Positions 12,665 through 36,382 of a stretch of DNA of 43,071 nt are shown here, piece after piece. The stretch lies in NCBI GenBank assembly GCA_020532215.1, contig JAJBBF010000103.1, positions 1-43,071 of the forward strand, written 5' to 3'. Made by a program: the position numbers and the translations under genes. The notes below the pieces were generated by a model. That model was not told the DNA's origin, ran no database searches, and was given only the letters and a program-made list of their open reading frames with translations. Position 1 is the first letter of the stretch, and every line of letters begins with the position of its first letter. This stretch comes from Candidatus Cloacimonadota bacterium. Lineage in GTDB: Bacteria; Cloacimonadota; Cloacimonadia; Cloacimonadales; Cloacimonadaceae.

Positions 12665-12714
12665 GTAAAATATTATCAAACCAATATTAATGCTCAGGTC
12701 CAGTCCGCTCTTGG

Positions 12715-12787
12715 TATCATTACGGGATAAATACGGGATCAATACGGATGAAATCCGTATTGATCCCGTATTTATCCCGTAATGATA
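12715..12787. repeat. 73-bp perfect palindrome, copy 1 (loop GAA)
   Basis: Two 35-bp arms pair perfectly around a 3-nt loop (GAA). Inside each arm, short units of the form TACGGGATMAA repeat in tandem. The right flank ATAATGGGGGCC is shared with the second copy at 32937-33027, whose loop reads TTC, that is, the same element in the opposite orientation. Confidence 0.95.
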
Positions 12788-12985
12788 ATGGGGGCCGGGC
12801 AGGATTTGGACTCCGGACGGTACATTTCGAGGGTTGGCTTTATCCTGGAGAAATTTGCGCGCGTTACTACAGCTCAAACCCTCTTGGCAAGGTACTTCTG
12901 GCGATTTGTTAAGAAAAACTAACATAAAAACCCTTGCCAGAATAACCGCCTTGCGCGGATGTTGCATTCATAAACAGGTAGATAA

Positions 12986-13693
12986 ATGAGCTTGATATAC
13001 ATTGTTGAAGACTCTGCGGACATGCTGTCCGTGGAGAAAACTTTGTTGGAAGGCTCCGGCTATAGGGTCCGGGGCTTCCCGGATGCCAGGTCCCTGCTGA
13101 AGGGGTTGACCGAAGAGATTCCGGACCTGCTGATGCTGGACCTGGCGCTTCCGGATCGCGACGGGCTGGACGTATGCCGTGACCTCAAATCCGATCCTGT
13201 GTTCCGCAACGTTCCCATCATCATGGTCACGGGGCGGATGGAGCACCAGGACATTGTGAAGGGCCTGGATCTCGGCGCGGACGACTATATCTGCAAACCT
13301 TTCGCCCTGGATGAACTAACGGCCAGGGTGCGCGCCATCCTGCGCCGCAGCGAACGCCCCACCCTCAGCGGCATAGTGGAAATAGCTCCCGGCCTGCGTT
13401 TGGACCTGCAACGCCAGGAACTGCTCACAGACACAGACAAGATCATCCTCCCACCCTCGGAATTCAGGATAATGCATTTGCTGATCAGCCGGCCGGACTG
13501 GGCTTTCCGGCGCAGCGAGATCCTCGACCACCTTTGGGGCGATGACAAGATTGTGGTGGAACGCACAGTGGATGTGCACGTCCGCAACCTGCGCGAAAAA
13601 CTCGGGGACCGCAGCAGCCTGATCCAAAAGGTGCACGGCGTGGGCTATTGCTTCAATCCCAAACCGGAGGACGGCGAAGAAGAGGACGATTGA
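12986..13693 (+). CDS. OmpR/PhoB-family response regulator, orphan
   Basis: 235 aa: an N-terminal receiver domain with the acidic pair E8-D9, phosphoacceptor D52 in LLMLDLALPD, the switch Thr in IIMVTGR and Lys in ICKPF. A C-terminal winged-helix DNA-binding domain follows (LPPSEFRIMHLLISRPDWAF, RTVDVHVRNLREKLGD, IQKVHGVGYCF), and a short acidic tail. No histidine kinase is next to it, so partner and regulon are unknown. It is divergent from the frameshifted secreted protein gene, which it could regulate, but nothing in the sequence proves that. Confidence 0.92.
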   Translation: MSLIYIVEDSADMLSVEKTLLEGSGYRVRGFPDARSLLKGLTEEIPDLLMLDLALPDRDGLDVCRDLKSDPVFRNVPIIMVTGRMEHQDIVKGLDLGADDYICKPFALDELTARVRAILRRSERPTLSGIVEIAPGLRLDLQRQELLTDTDKIILPPSEFRIMHLLISRPDWAFRRSEILDHLWGDDKIVVERTVDVHVRNLREKLGDRSSLIQKVHGVGYCFNPKPEDGEEEDD

Positions 13694-31910: not shown

Positions 31911-32930
31911 ATGCGGGTCGCCGTGATCGGCGGAGGCGGATGGGGCCTTGCCCTGGCCAAACTGCTGGCGGAAAACTCCCATCAAGTCTTGGTTTGGGAA
32001 CACGATCCGGATTTTCTGCGAACCCTTCAGTCAACCAGCTCCAACCCCCTGCTCCTGCCCGGGATAGTTCTGCCGCCGGCCATATCTTACACCGGTGATT
32101 TCTTCGCCCTGGCGGATTTCCAGCCCCAACTGGCGGTTCTGGCCACCCCCTCCCAATTTATCCGCGCCACCCTGGCAAAAATCCCGCCCGCGGCGGCTGA
32201 GCGAATCTGGGATCCCGGTCATCTCAAGGCCGTGGTCAATGTGGCCAAAGGCATCGAGGAAACATCCCTGCTTACCCCCGGCGGCATTCTGAAGCAGATC
32301 CTTCCCGCCCGGATCCATCCCCGCCTCTGCACCCTCTCCGGACCCAGCCACGCCGAGGAAGTGGCCGGCCAGATCCCCACGACCGTGGTCATCGCCGGAC
32401 CGGATGACGCTCTGCTGCGCGAGCTGCAAAGCGTTTTCAGCAACCCTTATTTTCGCGCCTACCGCAGCTCTGACCTCATCGGAGTGGAGATGGGCGGCGC
32501 GGTGAAAAACGTGATCGCCATCGCCGCCGGGATCGTGGCCGGTCTTGGTTTTGGCGATAACACCATGGGCGCCCTGCTCACCCGCGGGCTGGTGGAGATC
32601 CAGCGCCTGGGAGAAGCCTGCGGTGCAGACCCGGATACCTTTTTGGGACTCTCCGGTGTCGGCGATCTCATCACCACGGCCATTTCACCCCACAGCCGCA
32701 ACCGCCGCGTTGGCTTTGCCATCGGCTCTGGACGCAAGCTGAAAGAGATCATGGCCGAAATGAAGATGGTGGCCGAAGGCGTGGCCACCACCCGCTCCGT
32801 GTACAACCTGGCCCGTGAAAAAAACGTGGAAATGCCCATCACCGAAGAGGTTTATGCCACCCTTTACCAGGACAAGGATCCCCGCCAGGCTATCCTCGAA
32901 CTCATGACCCGCGAACTCAAAGCCGAATAG
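31911..32930 (+). CDS. gpsA: Glycerol-3-phosphate dehydrogenase [NAD(P)+]
   Basis: Makes sn-glycerol 3-phosphate from dihydroxyacetone phosphate for phospholipid synthesis. The 339-aa protein has the Rossmann motif VIGGGGWGLALAKLL, VNVAKGIEE, LSGPSHAEEVA, the catalytic-lysine block EMGGAVKNVIAIAAGI, DNTMGALLTRGLVEI, GLSGVGDLITT and SRNRRVGFAIG. GGAGG precedes the ATG. Last gene of the run beginning at pgsB; the second palindrome lies directly after its stop. Confidence 0.96.
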   Translation: MRVAVIGGGGWGLALAKLLAENSHQVLVWEHDPDFLRTLQSTSSNPLLLPGIVLPPAISYTGDFFALADFQPQLAVLATPSQFIRATLAKIPPAAAERIWDPGHLKAVVNVAKGIEETSLLTPGGILKQILPARIHPRLCTLSGPSHAEEVAGQIPTTVVIAGPDDALLRELQSVFSNPYFRAYRSSDLIGVEMGGAVKNVIAIAAGIVAGLGFGDNTMGALLTRGLVEIQRLGEACGADPDTFLGLSGVGDLITTAISPHSRNRRVGFAIGSGRKLKEIMAEMKMVAEGVATTRSVYNLAREKNVEMPITEEVYATLYQDKDPRQAILELMTRELKAE

Positions 32931-32936
32931 CTGGTT

Positions 32937-33027
32937 GGCTCCCAGCATCATTACGGGATAAATACGGGATCAATACGGATTTCATCCGTATTGATCCCGT
33001 ATTTATCCCGTATTGATAATGGGGGCC
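32937..33027. repeat. 91-bp imperfect palindrome, copy 2 (loop TTC)
   Basis: Arms from 32937 and to 33027 pair around the TTC at 32981-32983 with four unpaired or wobble positions; the inner 30-bp arms are perfect. It is the 12715-12787 element in opposite orientation, with matching GGC(T/C)CCCA outer ends. It may also act as a terminator for gpsA, although no T-run follows. Confidence 0.93.
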
Positions 33028-33110
33028 AGATGGGGTTTTTCCCTTTTTCAGATCGAGTGAGTGAAGCTACAGGACATTTTTTCTTTGCACAGCCTCATAC
33101 TATTTCGCCT

Positions 33111-33431
33111 TCATATATCCAAGTTTAGCCACTTGAAATTGGTCAGTTTTGAGACCATATCTTTATTATTGACCAGGTACGAGTAACCTTCAATCAGAGC
33201 TTTCTGCACATCATCAAGCGATCCATAGGCTGTATTCCTGAATTTTAGATCTCTGATCTTTGACCAAAGATGTTCGGGGGGATTCAGCTCAGGGCTATAA
33301 GCGGGCAGGAATATCAGCCGGATATTATCAAATTGCTTGAGATGATTTGTAGTATGCCACCCTGCTTTGTCCATGATGATGATGTTACGGTAATTGCGAT
33401 ATTCAATCCCCTTTATCATATGTTGGAACAC
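33111..33431 (-). pseudogene. IS630-family transposase remnant (C-terminal third)
   Basis: 106 aa corresponding to the end of an IS630-type DDE transposase: IIIMDKAGWHTT (second Asp), LIFLPAYSPELNPPEHLW (catalytic Glu). The N-terminal helix-turn-helix and the first catalytic Asp are missing, and bases 33432-33560 give no further transposase sequence in any frame. It therefore looks like a decayed fragment. No clear terminal inverted repeats were found around it. Confidence 0.85.
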
Positions 33432-33563: not shown

Positions 33564-36005
33564 TCAGATCTGATCCACCGTATAGCCCATACCCTCATAC
33601 CCCTTGATCCTCTTTCGGAACATCGCGGCCAGCACCGGCACCTCCCGGTCAACATAGTCATAGATCGTTACCTGGGTTTTGTTAGCATGGGCCCGGTGCA
33701 ATCGCCCCGCGTATTGCTGCAGGGTGCCCTTCCAGGAAATCGGCAAAGTTAGGAAGAGCGTATCCAGCCGGCTGTCATCAAAGCCTTCCCCGATATATTT
33801 TCCGGTTGAGATGATCACTCTTTCCTCATTATCCGGAATGGCTTGCAGCTGTTCCCTGACTGCCTTGAACTGCTTGCGGCCCATTCCTCCCCTCAGGCTG
33901 ATGATGTTTTTGGAAAAGCCCACCAGCTTGGAAGCAAAGAACTCCACGTGGGCAGTCCTCTCTGTAAGAATCAGAGGGCTTCTTCCAGCTACAATCGAGG
34001 CAATGATATCGTCCAGGATCAGCTTGTTCCGGGCCTCATCTTCGATCAGTGCCTGATAGACAGCTGTTATTCTGGCCTCTGGTTGTTGCAGGCTTTCCGG
34101 CAACTGAAAAGCAGTGTGGCGCACCTTGACCTTGTGGGTGAATGATCTCGATGCCAGCTGTGATCTGGCATCCACCTTGTAACGGATGGGACCGCACTGC
34201 ATGTACACGATCGGATGCTGTCCGTCTTTGCGGACTGGCGTGGCAGTAATGCCATAAACATACTTAGCCCTGGCTTCCTTGAGGACCTGTTCAAAGCTGA
34301 AAGCGGAGATATGGTGGCACTCATCCACGATCACCATGCCGTAATCACTCACGAATTCCTTAACTTTGCGTCCCTGATACAGGCTCTGCAAAATGGCCAC
34401 GTCGATCTTGCCGCTTCTTTTGTCCTTGCCGGCTCCCACTGCGCCAAATTCTGCGCCGTCCAGAAAGCAGCCCAGCCGTTCCAGCCACTGCTCCATCAGT
34501 TGACGGCGATGGACCACTATCAGGGTGTTGGTTTTTCTCTGCGCGATCATCCAAATGGCCACCACCGTTTTTCCAAAGGCTGTGGTCGCCGATAGAATCC
34601 CATTGTCACGCGCGAGCAGGGACTGCCCGGCCATTAACTGCTCCGGACTCAGTTTACCGATGAATTCAGCTGTTAGTGCCTCTCCAGTATATCTGAGATC
34701 CCTAACATTTGTTATGATGCCTAATTTTCCCATCAGAGCCGACAAAGCATCGCAACAGCCCCGGGGTAGGGCCAGATATTCATCGCTTTCGCCTGAGAGA
34801 TTGATGATCCTGGGTATGTTGTAGATCGGCATCCGCAGGGCTTGGGCTTTGTAAAACTCCGGATTCTGGAAGGCAGCCAACCTGATGATGTGACTCAGCA
34901 ATTTCTGCGGCAGGCCTGCTTTTTCGATGTAGATCATATTGCTGAGGACGATGTTTGCCTGGGCTGGCAGGTCTTCATATTCTTCAAATGCGGGGGTTCT
35001 ATGTTGCCAAGGTGGGATTTCCTCTTGATCCGCTTCAGCTAGCATTCCTGCTACTTTATGCCTGGCCGTGAGTTCAGAAATATACTGAGTTAATTTTGCT
35101 GGACCAATCCTCTTGAAGTTGGCCAGCCATTGCCATTGATCTTCCATCGGGCTAAGCTCATCATCCAAAAACACGCTGTTGCCCTGTTCTCTGGACTGTT
35201 TCTGGAGCGGTAGGGCGATCAGATTGCCAAAACCTCCCTTGGGCATGGAGTCCTGATTGGGGAAAAGCCTGTCGTAGGAATCAAGCCCGATCTGATGACG
35301 GCTGTCGAGCGTGGCAGTGATAATGGCTGATCCCAGTTTTCTGGCCATCCCAGCAGACACGGCTTCCTCAAAGAACATCCACACATGCGCGCCATTCCCC
35401 GATCTTGATCTCTCTGTATATGCTGGGATAGAGTGCGTAGAACAGGTTTGCTTGATGGCCAGAACATCCTCCCGCCATTCCTTCTTGTCAAAATCTATAG
35501 CCAAAAAATGGCAGGTATCGTTGTCCAGCAGGGGATAAATACCGACAACTATTTCGCCTTTCAAATGTCTGTAGATCTGGCTGGCATCGAGCGGTATGAG
35601 TTGCCTGTGTTCGCATTTGGCACAGGGGGTCTTCTTGTATTTGCCGCAAATCCCAAGTTTCCAGTCGTTCAAGCAAGCAGGTGAGTAGCCGGACCGGTTG
35701 TTCTTGCCGCTCCACCGGATCGCAAAAACATCCTCTCGTCCGCGAAAGAGGCTTCGAAAGAGGGCAACCTTTTCCTGGGGAGAAGACTGATTATTGATGG
35801 ATTCCACATGAGGTGAAGATGGAATGTCTGATGTCCTGGCCAATTTCTCTGGTTTTGCCCGTTCCTCCATGTCCATTGCAACACGATCACCCTTCCTGAG
35901 CTCAGCCAAATTCTCTTTGAGCCTCCCGTTTTCTCGCTCCAGGATGGCAATCCTTTCCAAAGCTTTCTTCAATTCCTCATCGTTGCTATCGTGATCATCT
36001 CTCAT
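33564..36005 (-). CDS. Primase-helicase fusion, TOTE conflict-system-like
   Basis: 813 aa from ATG 36005, with AAGGAT seven bases upstream; the track start at 36029 is TTG. N-terminal coiled coil (ELKKALERIAILERENGRLKENL). Next is a domain like the archaeo-eukaryotic primase of TOTE conflict systems: zinc-type cysteines (PACLNDW..GIC..TPCAKC), AIDFD with paired Asp, RSRSGNGAHVW with His, YDRLFPNQD and GGFGNLIALPLQ. A superfamily 2 helicase follows: motif I TTAFGKT (unusual), motif II VDECHH, motif III TATPVRKDG and motif VI QYAGRLHR. It probably acts on nucleic acid in defence or element maintenance. No partner nuclease is adjacent. Confidence 0.88.
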   Translation of the reverse strand: MRDDHDSNDEELKKALERIAILERENGRLKENLAELRKGDRVAMDMEERAKPEKLARTSDIPSSPHVESINNQSSPQEKVALFRSLFRGREDVFAIRWSGKNNRSGYSPACLNDWKLGICGKYKKTPCAKCEHRQLIPLDASQIYRHLKGEIVVGIYPLLDNDTCHFLAIDFDKKEWREDVLAIKQTCSTHSIPAYTERSRSGNGAHVWMFFEEAVSAGMARKLGSAIITATLDSRHQIGLDSYDRLFPNQDSMPKGGFGNLIALPLQKQSREQGNSVFLDDELSPMEDQWQWLANFKRIGPAKLTQYISELTARHKVAGMLAEADQEEIPPWQHRTPAFEEYEDLPAQANIVLSNMIYIEKAGLPQKLLSHIIRLAAFQNPEFYKAQALRMPIYNIPRIINLSGESDEYLALPRGCCDALSALMGKLGIITNVRDLRYTGEALTAEFIGKLSPEQLMAGQSLLARDNGILSATTAFGKTVVAIWMIAQRKTNTLIVVHRRQLMEQWLERLGCFLDGAEFGAVGAGKDKRSGKIDVAILQSLYQGRKVKEFVSDYGMVIVDECHHISAFSFEQVLKEARAKYVYGITATPVRKDGQHPIVYMQCGPIRYKVDARSQLASRSFTHKVKVRHTAFQLPESLQQPEARITAVYQALIEDEARNKLILDDIIASIVAGRSPLILTERTAHVEFFASKLVGFSKNIISLRGGMGRKQFKAVREQLQAIPDNEERVIISTGKYIGEGFDDSRLDTLFLTLPISWKGTLQQYAGRLHRAHANKTQVTIYDYVDREVPVLAAMFRKRIKGYEGMGYTVDQI

Positions 36006-36382
36006 GCTTATATCCTTAGGCGCATCCAAAACAACACCTTATATCGGTCAATGCTTTTCGGTACCATAACCAAACAAACTCGACCGATACCTTTCTGTTT
36101 TCTGTTAGTCTAGTTCTGTCGCGCGGCATGCCAGTAATCAACAGTGGTCAATTTACTCGCAGGTTTTCTATGGTATTTGCAAAAAGAATGAAACTGGAGT
36201 CTCACCAAAACCGGCGATTTGCAACGAAAGTGATACTATTTGCAATTTCACTTGATTCTCTATAGGCAAACTCAAATCTCACTGCCTGGCTCCCAGCATA
36301 GAAAGAGACCTGCGCGTCCATTATTTTGGTTGACATCCAGCCTGTATCTGTCAAACTGGTTTGTTAACCAAAGGATAAGAAT
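36006..36382. other. 377-bp divergent intergenic region with phased ATTTGCAA repeats
   Basis: No gene is supported. It contains three ATTTGCAA octamers at 36175, 36217 and 36238 (spacings 42 and 21 bp), an 8-bp inverted repeat TATCGGTC/GACCGATA at 36042 and 36082 close to the helicase start, and the right copy of the direct repeat at 36287-36299. A TTGACA at about 36332 is not followed by a convincing -10 box. Confidence 0.6.

Follow-up and report, generated by a model that had tools for sequence, protein, structure and literature searches.

The window analysed here is a 43,071-nt stretch of contig JAJBBF010000103.1 from a Candidatus Cloacimonadota MAG (G000; 1.95 Mb, 178 contigs, 80% complete), and it holds two copies of a long intergenic palindrome. 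Copy 1 lies between divergent genes, one of which encodes a response regulator, and copy 2 starts about 10 bp past the stop codon of gpsA at 32930. The features are as follows.

12696..12807, + strand: whole conserved extent of copy 1, an invariant core with degenerate symmetrical ends (GGCTCC-like and GGAGCC-like), from column conservation in 52 aligned copies
12715..12787, no strand: copy 1 palindrome, 35-bp arms, 100% complementary; loop GAA at 12750-12752
12718..12747, + strand: copy 1 left arm, three 11-bp-spaced cores, CATTACGG (12718), AAATACGG (12729) and CAATACGG (12740)
12755..12784, - strand: copy 1 right arm, the left-arm cores inverted, CCGTATTG (12755), CCGTATTT (12766) and CCGTAATG (12777)
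12986..13693, + strand: response-regulator gene flanking copy 1 (Pfam Response_reg and Trans_reg_C), which led to the orthologous copies in G003 and G012
31911..32930, + strand: gpsA (NAD-dependent glycerol-3-phosphate dehydrogenase; Pfam), upstream of copy 2; site read in eight other species
32926..33037, - strand: whole conserved extent of copy 2, loop orientation opposite to copy 1, with the outer end directly against the stop codon of gpsA
32936..33028, no strand: copy 2 palindrome, arms 32936-32980 and 32984-33028 (45 nt, 91% complementary); loop TTC

An earlier note on this DNA had described a perfect palindrome at 12715-12787, repeated in inverted orientation at 32937-33027, with reverse-complement loops and arms built of tandem TACGGGAT-type units. 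The 35-nt arms of copy 1 are indeed fully complementary around GAA, and the loop of copy 2 is TTC. The second location does hold an inverted copy, 95% complementary to copy 1 over 82 nt, but it is not perfect over the range given, since its arms pair at 91% and the uninterrupted central stem measures 29 bp. The repeated units are more exactly three 11-bp units per arm with the common core YAWTACGG, and self-identity of the palindrome reaches 0.75 at a shift of 11 against 0.11-0.32 at other shifts. The two contexts, a divergent intergenic region for copy 1 and a position about 10 bp past the gpsA stop for copy 2, are as the note had them. Predicted RNA folds of the window copies reach -64 to -76 kcal/mol with z-scores of -12 to -14, values at which the palindromes are not a product of chance.

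Adjoining copy 2 are a gene for a TOTE-type primase-helicase protein (33564-36029, - strand; Pfam AEP-TOTE and ResIII; PADLOC PrimPol) and a C-terminal fragment of a DDE_3 (IS630-type) transposase (33111-33431, - strand), which together mark this intergenic region as a variable spot. The right arms at 12760-12789 and 32991-33020 (+ strand) read TTGATC-18-GATAAT, an outward-pointing sigma-70-like match whose second hexamer depends on the variable box and which is probably fortuitous.

A pattern scan finds 57 palindromes of the TACGG type in G000 and none with the reversed control pattern; the element is thus a dispersed repeat, and not the mere pair of copies that the earlier note had named as the contrary case. 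All 53 sampled copies are intergenic according to a simple home-made gene caller, which places 30 between tandem, 12 between convergent and 8 between divergent genes, with 3 adjoining contig ends. Across 52 aligned copies, positions -33 to +37 relative to the loop hardly vary; beyond them lie degenerate symmetrical ends (GGCTCC... / ...GGAGCC) along which conservation fades to background at about -53 and +58, giving a core of 71-73 bp within a conserved extent of about 110 bp. Dispersed, homologous, non-coding, foldable and intergenic, the copies form an intergenic stem-loop repeat family in the general sense of that class. Rfam 15 returns no match at gathering score within the window, and a search of the open-access literature, with subscription papers outside its scope, found neither this repeat nor the concerted evolution of such palindromes described.

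Outside the core, the boxes of G000 copies at -40..-34 and +38..+44 are drawn, left and right, from one small set of 6-mers (CCATTA, CCAGCA, CTGCGA, CTGTTA and others), and the two boxes of a copy agree less than shuffled pairs do (6.25 versus 6.90 of 10 positions; 0.02% of shuffles are as low). The outer boxes of G003 are uniform, and the left/right mismatch of G000 is absent there. The largest protein cluster around the G000 copies comprises 28 proteins in 21 loci (L042, L058, L075, L076, L079, L085 and others); its members appear to be secreted proteins with a common C-terminal part, and several palindrome copies lie just past their 3' ends. It was the only candidate for a recurrent gene linked to the copies.

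TACGG-type copies are distributed patchily among relatives. In the same genus there are 57 in G003, 76 in G007, 39 in G009 and 41 in G012, G005 has a few diverged copies, and no palindrome of this type occurs in G001, G002, G004, G006, G008, G010 or G011. Other genera of the family are also uneven, with 75 copies in G020 and fewer in G018, G054, G016 and others, and the type was not found in 75 sampled genomes of the phylum from outside the family. Dispersed palindromes built of 11-bp units that have a TACGG-like core also occur in a Bacteroidales MAG (L297, G125), and the spread into other phyla is at least that seen among the matches listed. Viral contigs (IMG/VR), phages and plasmids gave no match to the palindrome, and a phage or plasmid origin was rejected on that basis. 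The 11-bp architecture extends to palindromes of unrelated sequence: in the DNA fetched, a shift of 11 gives the strongest self-similarity in every one of the 77 TACGG palindromes and also in 15 of the 27 remaining long ones. Relatives and the Bacteroidales MAG have such unrelated palindromes, at times in the same place; the non-TACGG types include TATCACTTGTC (G007), CTTAATCAAGC (G001, G004 and G009), ACACTTCCCGC (G003) and CCTTAGTATAA (G013).

Flanks that are 70-88% identical put many of the copies at one and the same intergenic position in other species; these orthologous sites were located through sampled copies and so do not give an unbiased figure for the proportion of sites in common. 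Both window copies are present in G003. The copy 1 site ahead of the response-regulator gene is occupied in G003 and G012, and for two locus pairs (L057/L149 and L065/L160) the alignment of the flanks runs right up to the element. Downstream of gpsA the TACGG type stands in G000, in G003 (about 20-30 bp past the stop) and in G012 (about 150 bp past it), a TTAATCAAG/ATCACTTG type stands in G001, G004 and G007 (at about 490 bp in the last), and G008 possibly has a third, weaker type; no palindrome was seen near the downstream side of gpsA in G009 or G002. A place can therefore be kept or re-used while the type of sequence changes. The distance of about 150 bp in G012 against 10-30 bp in G000 and G003, together with unrelated types at some sites, suggests that part of the positional overlap may reflect repeated insertion into preferred places.

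The dispersed palindromes evolve in concert: they are homogenised per species, and orthologues are no closer than paralogues. In a comparison of draft MAGs at species-level distance, with 10-54 copies per species aligned without gaps and loop orientation normalised, mean identity of the 71-bp core is 0.955-0.972 within species (0.937 in G007) and 0.78-0.94 between them. Eight G000-G003 orthologous pairs have a core identity of 0.882, against 0.891 for all G000-G003 pairs; paralogues within each of the two species (0.972 in G000, 0.962 in G003) resemble one another more than orthologues do. Each species is marked by its own spacer haplotype, GATA/GA in 44 of 54 copies of G000, TATC/AA in 19 of 24 of G003, GATC/GA in 21 of 21 of G009, AATA/AA in 9 of 15 of G012 and TGTC/AC in 8 of 10 of G007. 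Nearly all fixed stem differences between species are compensatory, changing both arms: 4 of 4 between G000 and G003, 3 of 3 between G000 and G012, 6 of 7 between G000 and G007, and 1 of 2 between G000 and G009, where one difference is single-sided. Rare variants aside, each species has a single loop sequence; identity drops symmetrically outward from the loop, and minority copies of one species match the majority type of another.

Palindromes in E. coli provoke SbcCD-dependent breaks that are repaired by recombination. Two papers deal with such a system (PMC4125073; PMC6061781). We hypothesize, with about an even chance of being right, that the Cloacimonadota palindromes are old MITE/REP-like hairpin insertions that keep their positions while ectopic gene conversion, which we infer to be provoked at the palindrome itself, overwrites their sequence. 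The family would first have spread as a palindromic element inserted at new sites, its mobiliser since lost or not recognised, and the hairpins would then mostly have remained where they were. A hairpin or cruciform arising at the replication fork could be cut near its tip by an SbcCD-type nuclease, and repair templated by any other copy would homogenise the element from the centre outward, make its arms perfectly complementary again and allow a new variant to sweep the genome. Conversion started at the palindrome is expected to homogenise most strongly around the centre, as is observed. The YAWTACGG core, spaced at one helical turn, may additionally be kept by a DNA-binding protein, and its TACGG is kept in every unit across genera, which suggests selection on the sites as well and counts against conversion alone. 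Instability is expected of long, nearly perfect palindromes. Dozens of them nonetheless persist at fixed sites from species to species, still palindromic despite turnover of their sequence, which makes them a natural system in which to test how bacteria process hairpins and carry out ectopic gene conversion.

The main rival, which we consider doubtful and which is compatible with gene conversion, takes each hairpin as an array of 6-8 binding sites, the protein recognising YAWTACGG at every turn of the helix and being, for example, a nucleoid organiser, a segregation factor or a transcription roadblock, with the concerted change reflecting co-evolution with that protein. Across genera every unit retains TACGG whereas the 3-nt spacers vary, the sampled DNA has 222 of its 246 core motifs clustered within the palindromic arrays, the 11-bp period recurs in palindromes of unrelated sequence, and positions are conserved between species; the core kept at one helical turn suggests that a protein may also read the array. 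Binding alone, however, requires neither identical spacers in all copies nor spacers that pair from arm to arm, most species of the genus lack the TACGG type, and the analysis turned up no candidate protein. ParR/parC and similar iteron arrays likewise consist of tandem 11-bp sites, spaced by roughly one turn of the helix. The Cloacimonadota arrays differ from these in being inverted into hairpins, in their roughly 57 dispersed chromosomal copies and in that no partner gene was found. A broader reading, more doubtful again, is a chromosome-wide, species-specific hairpin address system in which 11-bp recognition units at conserved intergenic places change over as a set, either through overwriting from a template or in step with a binding protein dedicated to them, while relatives hold the same places with different, even unrelated, units. 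Should a protein read the 11-bp arrays, an uncultured phylum would prove to have a new system of sites that spans the chromosome.

That the family is instead an actively mobile MITE with a site preference, having burst recently in each species and inserted repeatedly into preferred intergenic places, is unlikely. Its patchy distribution, with no copies in G001, G002, G004 and others, would fit, as would the gpsA site, occupied by different types at varying distances from the stop. But flank alignments reach the element ends at exact orthologous positions, and neither a target-site duplication nor a linked transposase, solitary ends or a parent element was seen. A DDE-type MITE, for instance one derived from IS630/Tc1, was rejected, since no TA or other 4-9 bp duplication stands at any assumed end. 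No transposase family recurs beside the copies at the 53 sampled loci, the IS630-type DDE_3 fragment lying beside copy 2 only, and these loci, from a draft genome that breaks at repeats, contain no autonomous element with the same ends. Very unlikely too is a role as bidirectional transcription terminators or protectors of mRNA 3' ends: 21 of the 30 tandem-context copies are closer to the upstream stop (p=0.04), and TTTT lies directly outside 24% of sides against 13% in the control (p=0.009), but eight copies, copy 1 among them, lie between divergent genes, three quarters of sides lack a T-tract, and termination does not need genome-wide uniformity of the core. Terminator scans found that the palindrome forms no intrinsic terminator, a GC-rich hairpin with a T-tract directly behind it, at copy 1 or copy 2. 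A general terminator role was rejected on the mixed gene contexts, the mild T-tract enrichment and the nature of the window copies, bearing out the earlier view that a simple terminator does not fit.

Mobilisation as REP/REPIN elements by a RAYT (Y1) transposase is the least credible of these readings. It seemed convincing at first, as carriers possess Y1/RAYT genes and the palindrome lies 30-440 bp from some of them, but it was then rejected: most Y1 genes have short, unrelated repeats of their own, and the nearby cases come down to two Y1 loci seen as orthologous copies, with the palindrome on one side. Y1 genes also occur without the TACGG palindrome in G001 and G013, and tags at the stem foot stay at control level (GTAG 1 and 0, CGTC 2 and 2 of 54 copies per side). 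The suggestion of a REP/MITE-like mobile element thus stands as regards a dispersed repeat, whereas the evidence supports neither the RAYT link nor current mobility, many copies being at orthologous places in other species. The note's alternative of a protein-recognised element may hold, as the core is a phased 11-bp array.

Like REP, REPIN and BIME sequences, the palindromes are dispersed, intergenic and numerous, biased towards gene 3' ends and of several types per genome (PMC3733652; PMC3116915; PMC2817692). REPs, however, are 20-40 bp long with a GTAG or CGTC tag and, for the GTAG type, a linked RAYT (PMC3733652; PMC3116915; PMC2817692), whereas the Cloacimonadota element is about 110 bp long, has a period of 11 bp, and possesses neither such a tag nor a RAYT linked to it. 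Nor does it flank a RAYT gene in the manner of a REPtron, most Y1 genes being flanked by other repeats. ERIC, Bcr1 and YPAL stem-loop repeats or MITEs are alike in being intergenic, 70-200 bp long and without coding capacity, with long stems and tens of copies (PMC2267715). Unlike them, the Cloacimonadota palindrome has arms of three tandem 11-bp units, is homogenised per species at common sites in both arms together, and showed no target-site duplication or parent element. The TIRs of Y1-type transposase genes (TIRYT/TIRtrons; PMC3733652) are likewise long, partly self-complementary and moderately repeated, but they stand on both sides of a gene, which the 11-bp palindromes do not flank.

Several of the loci visited hold other repeats. 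Y1/RAYT genes with short repeat arrays of their own (for example GAGTCCCGTAGGGACGGCATTTTAGATAGAA; AATCCGGTGTTCCGG) occur at L102 (1-420), L104, L100, L106 and L074 (1-1200), and are ordinary REP-like systems in Cloacimonadota. At L319 of G007, a different, GC-rich palindrome (CCCCACCCCCACCCCAAACAC...) lies on both sides of a Y1 gene (1146-1250 and 2160-2260), resembling the TIRs of a TIRtron. Several kilobases of L179 (G009:C154) and L190 (G012:C70), palindrome included, are 100% identical between the MAGs of two species, which reflects contamination of one bin or very recent transfer. In the Bacteroidales MAG, L338 (G125:C2:60646) is a direct tandem array of about six copies of the 11-bp unit TACGGTCGAGA that forms no simple palindrome.
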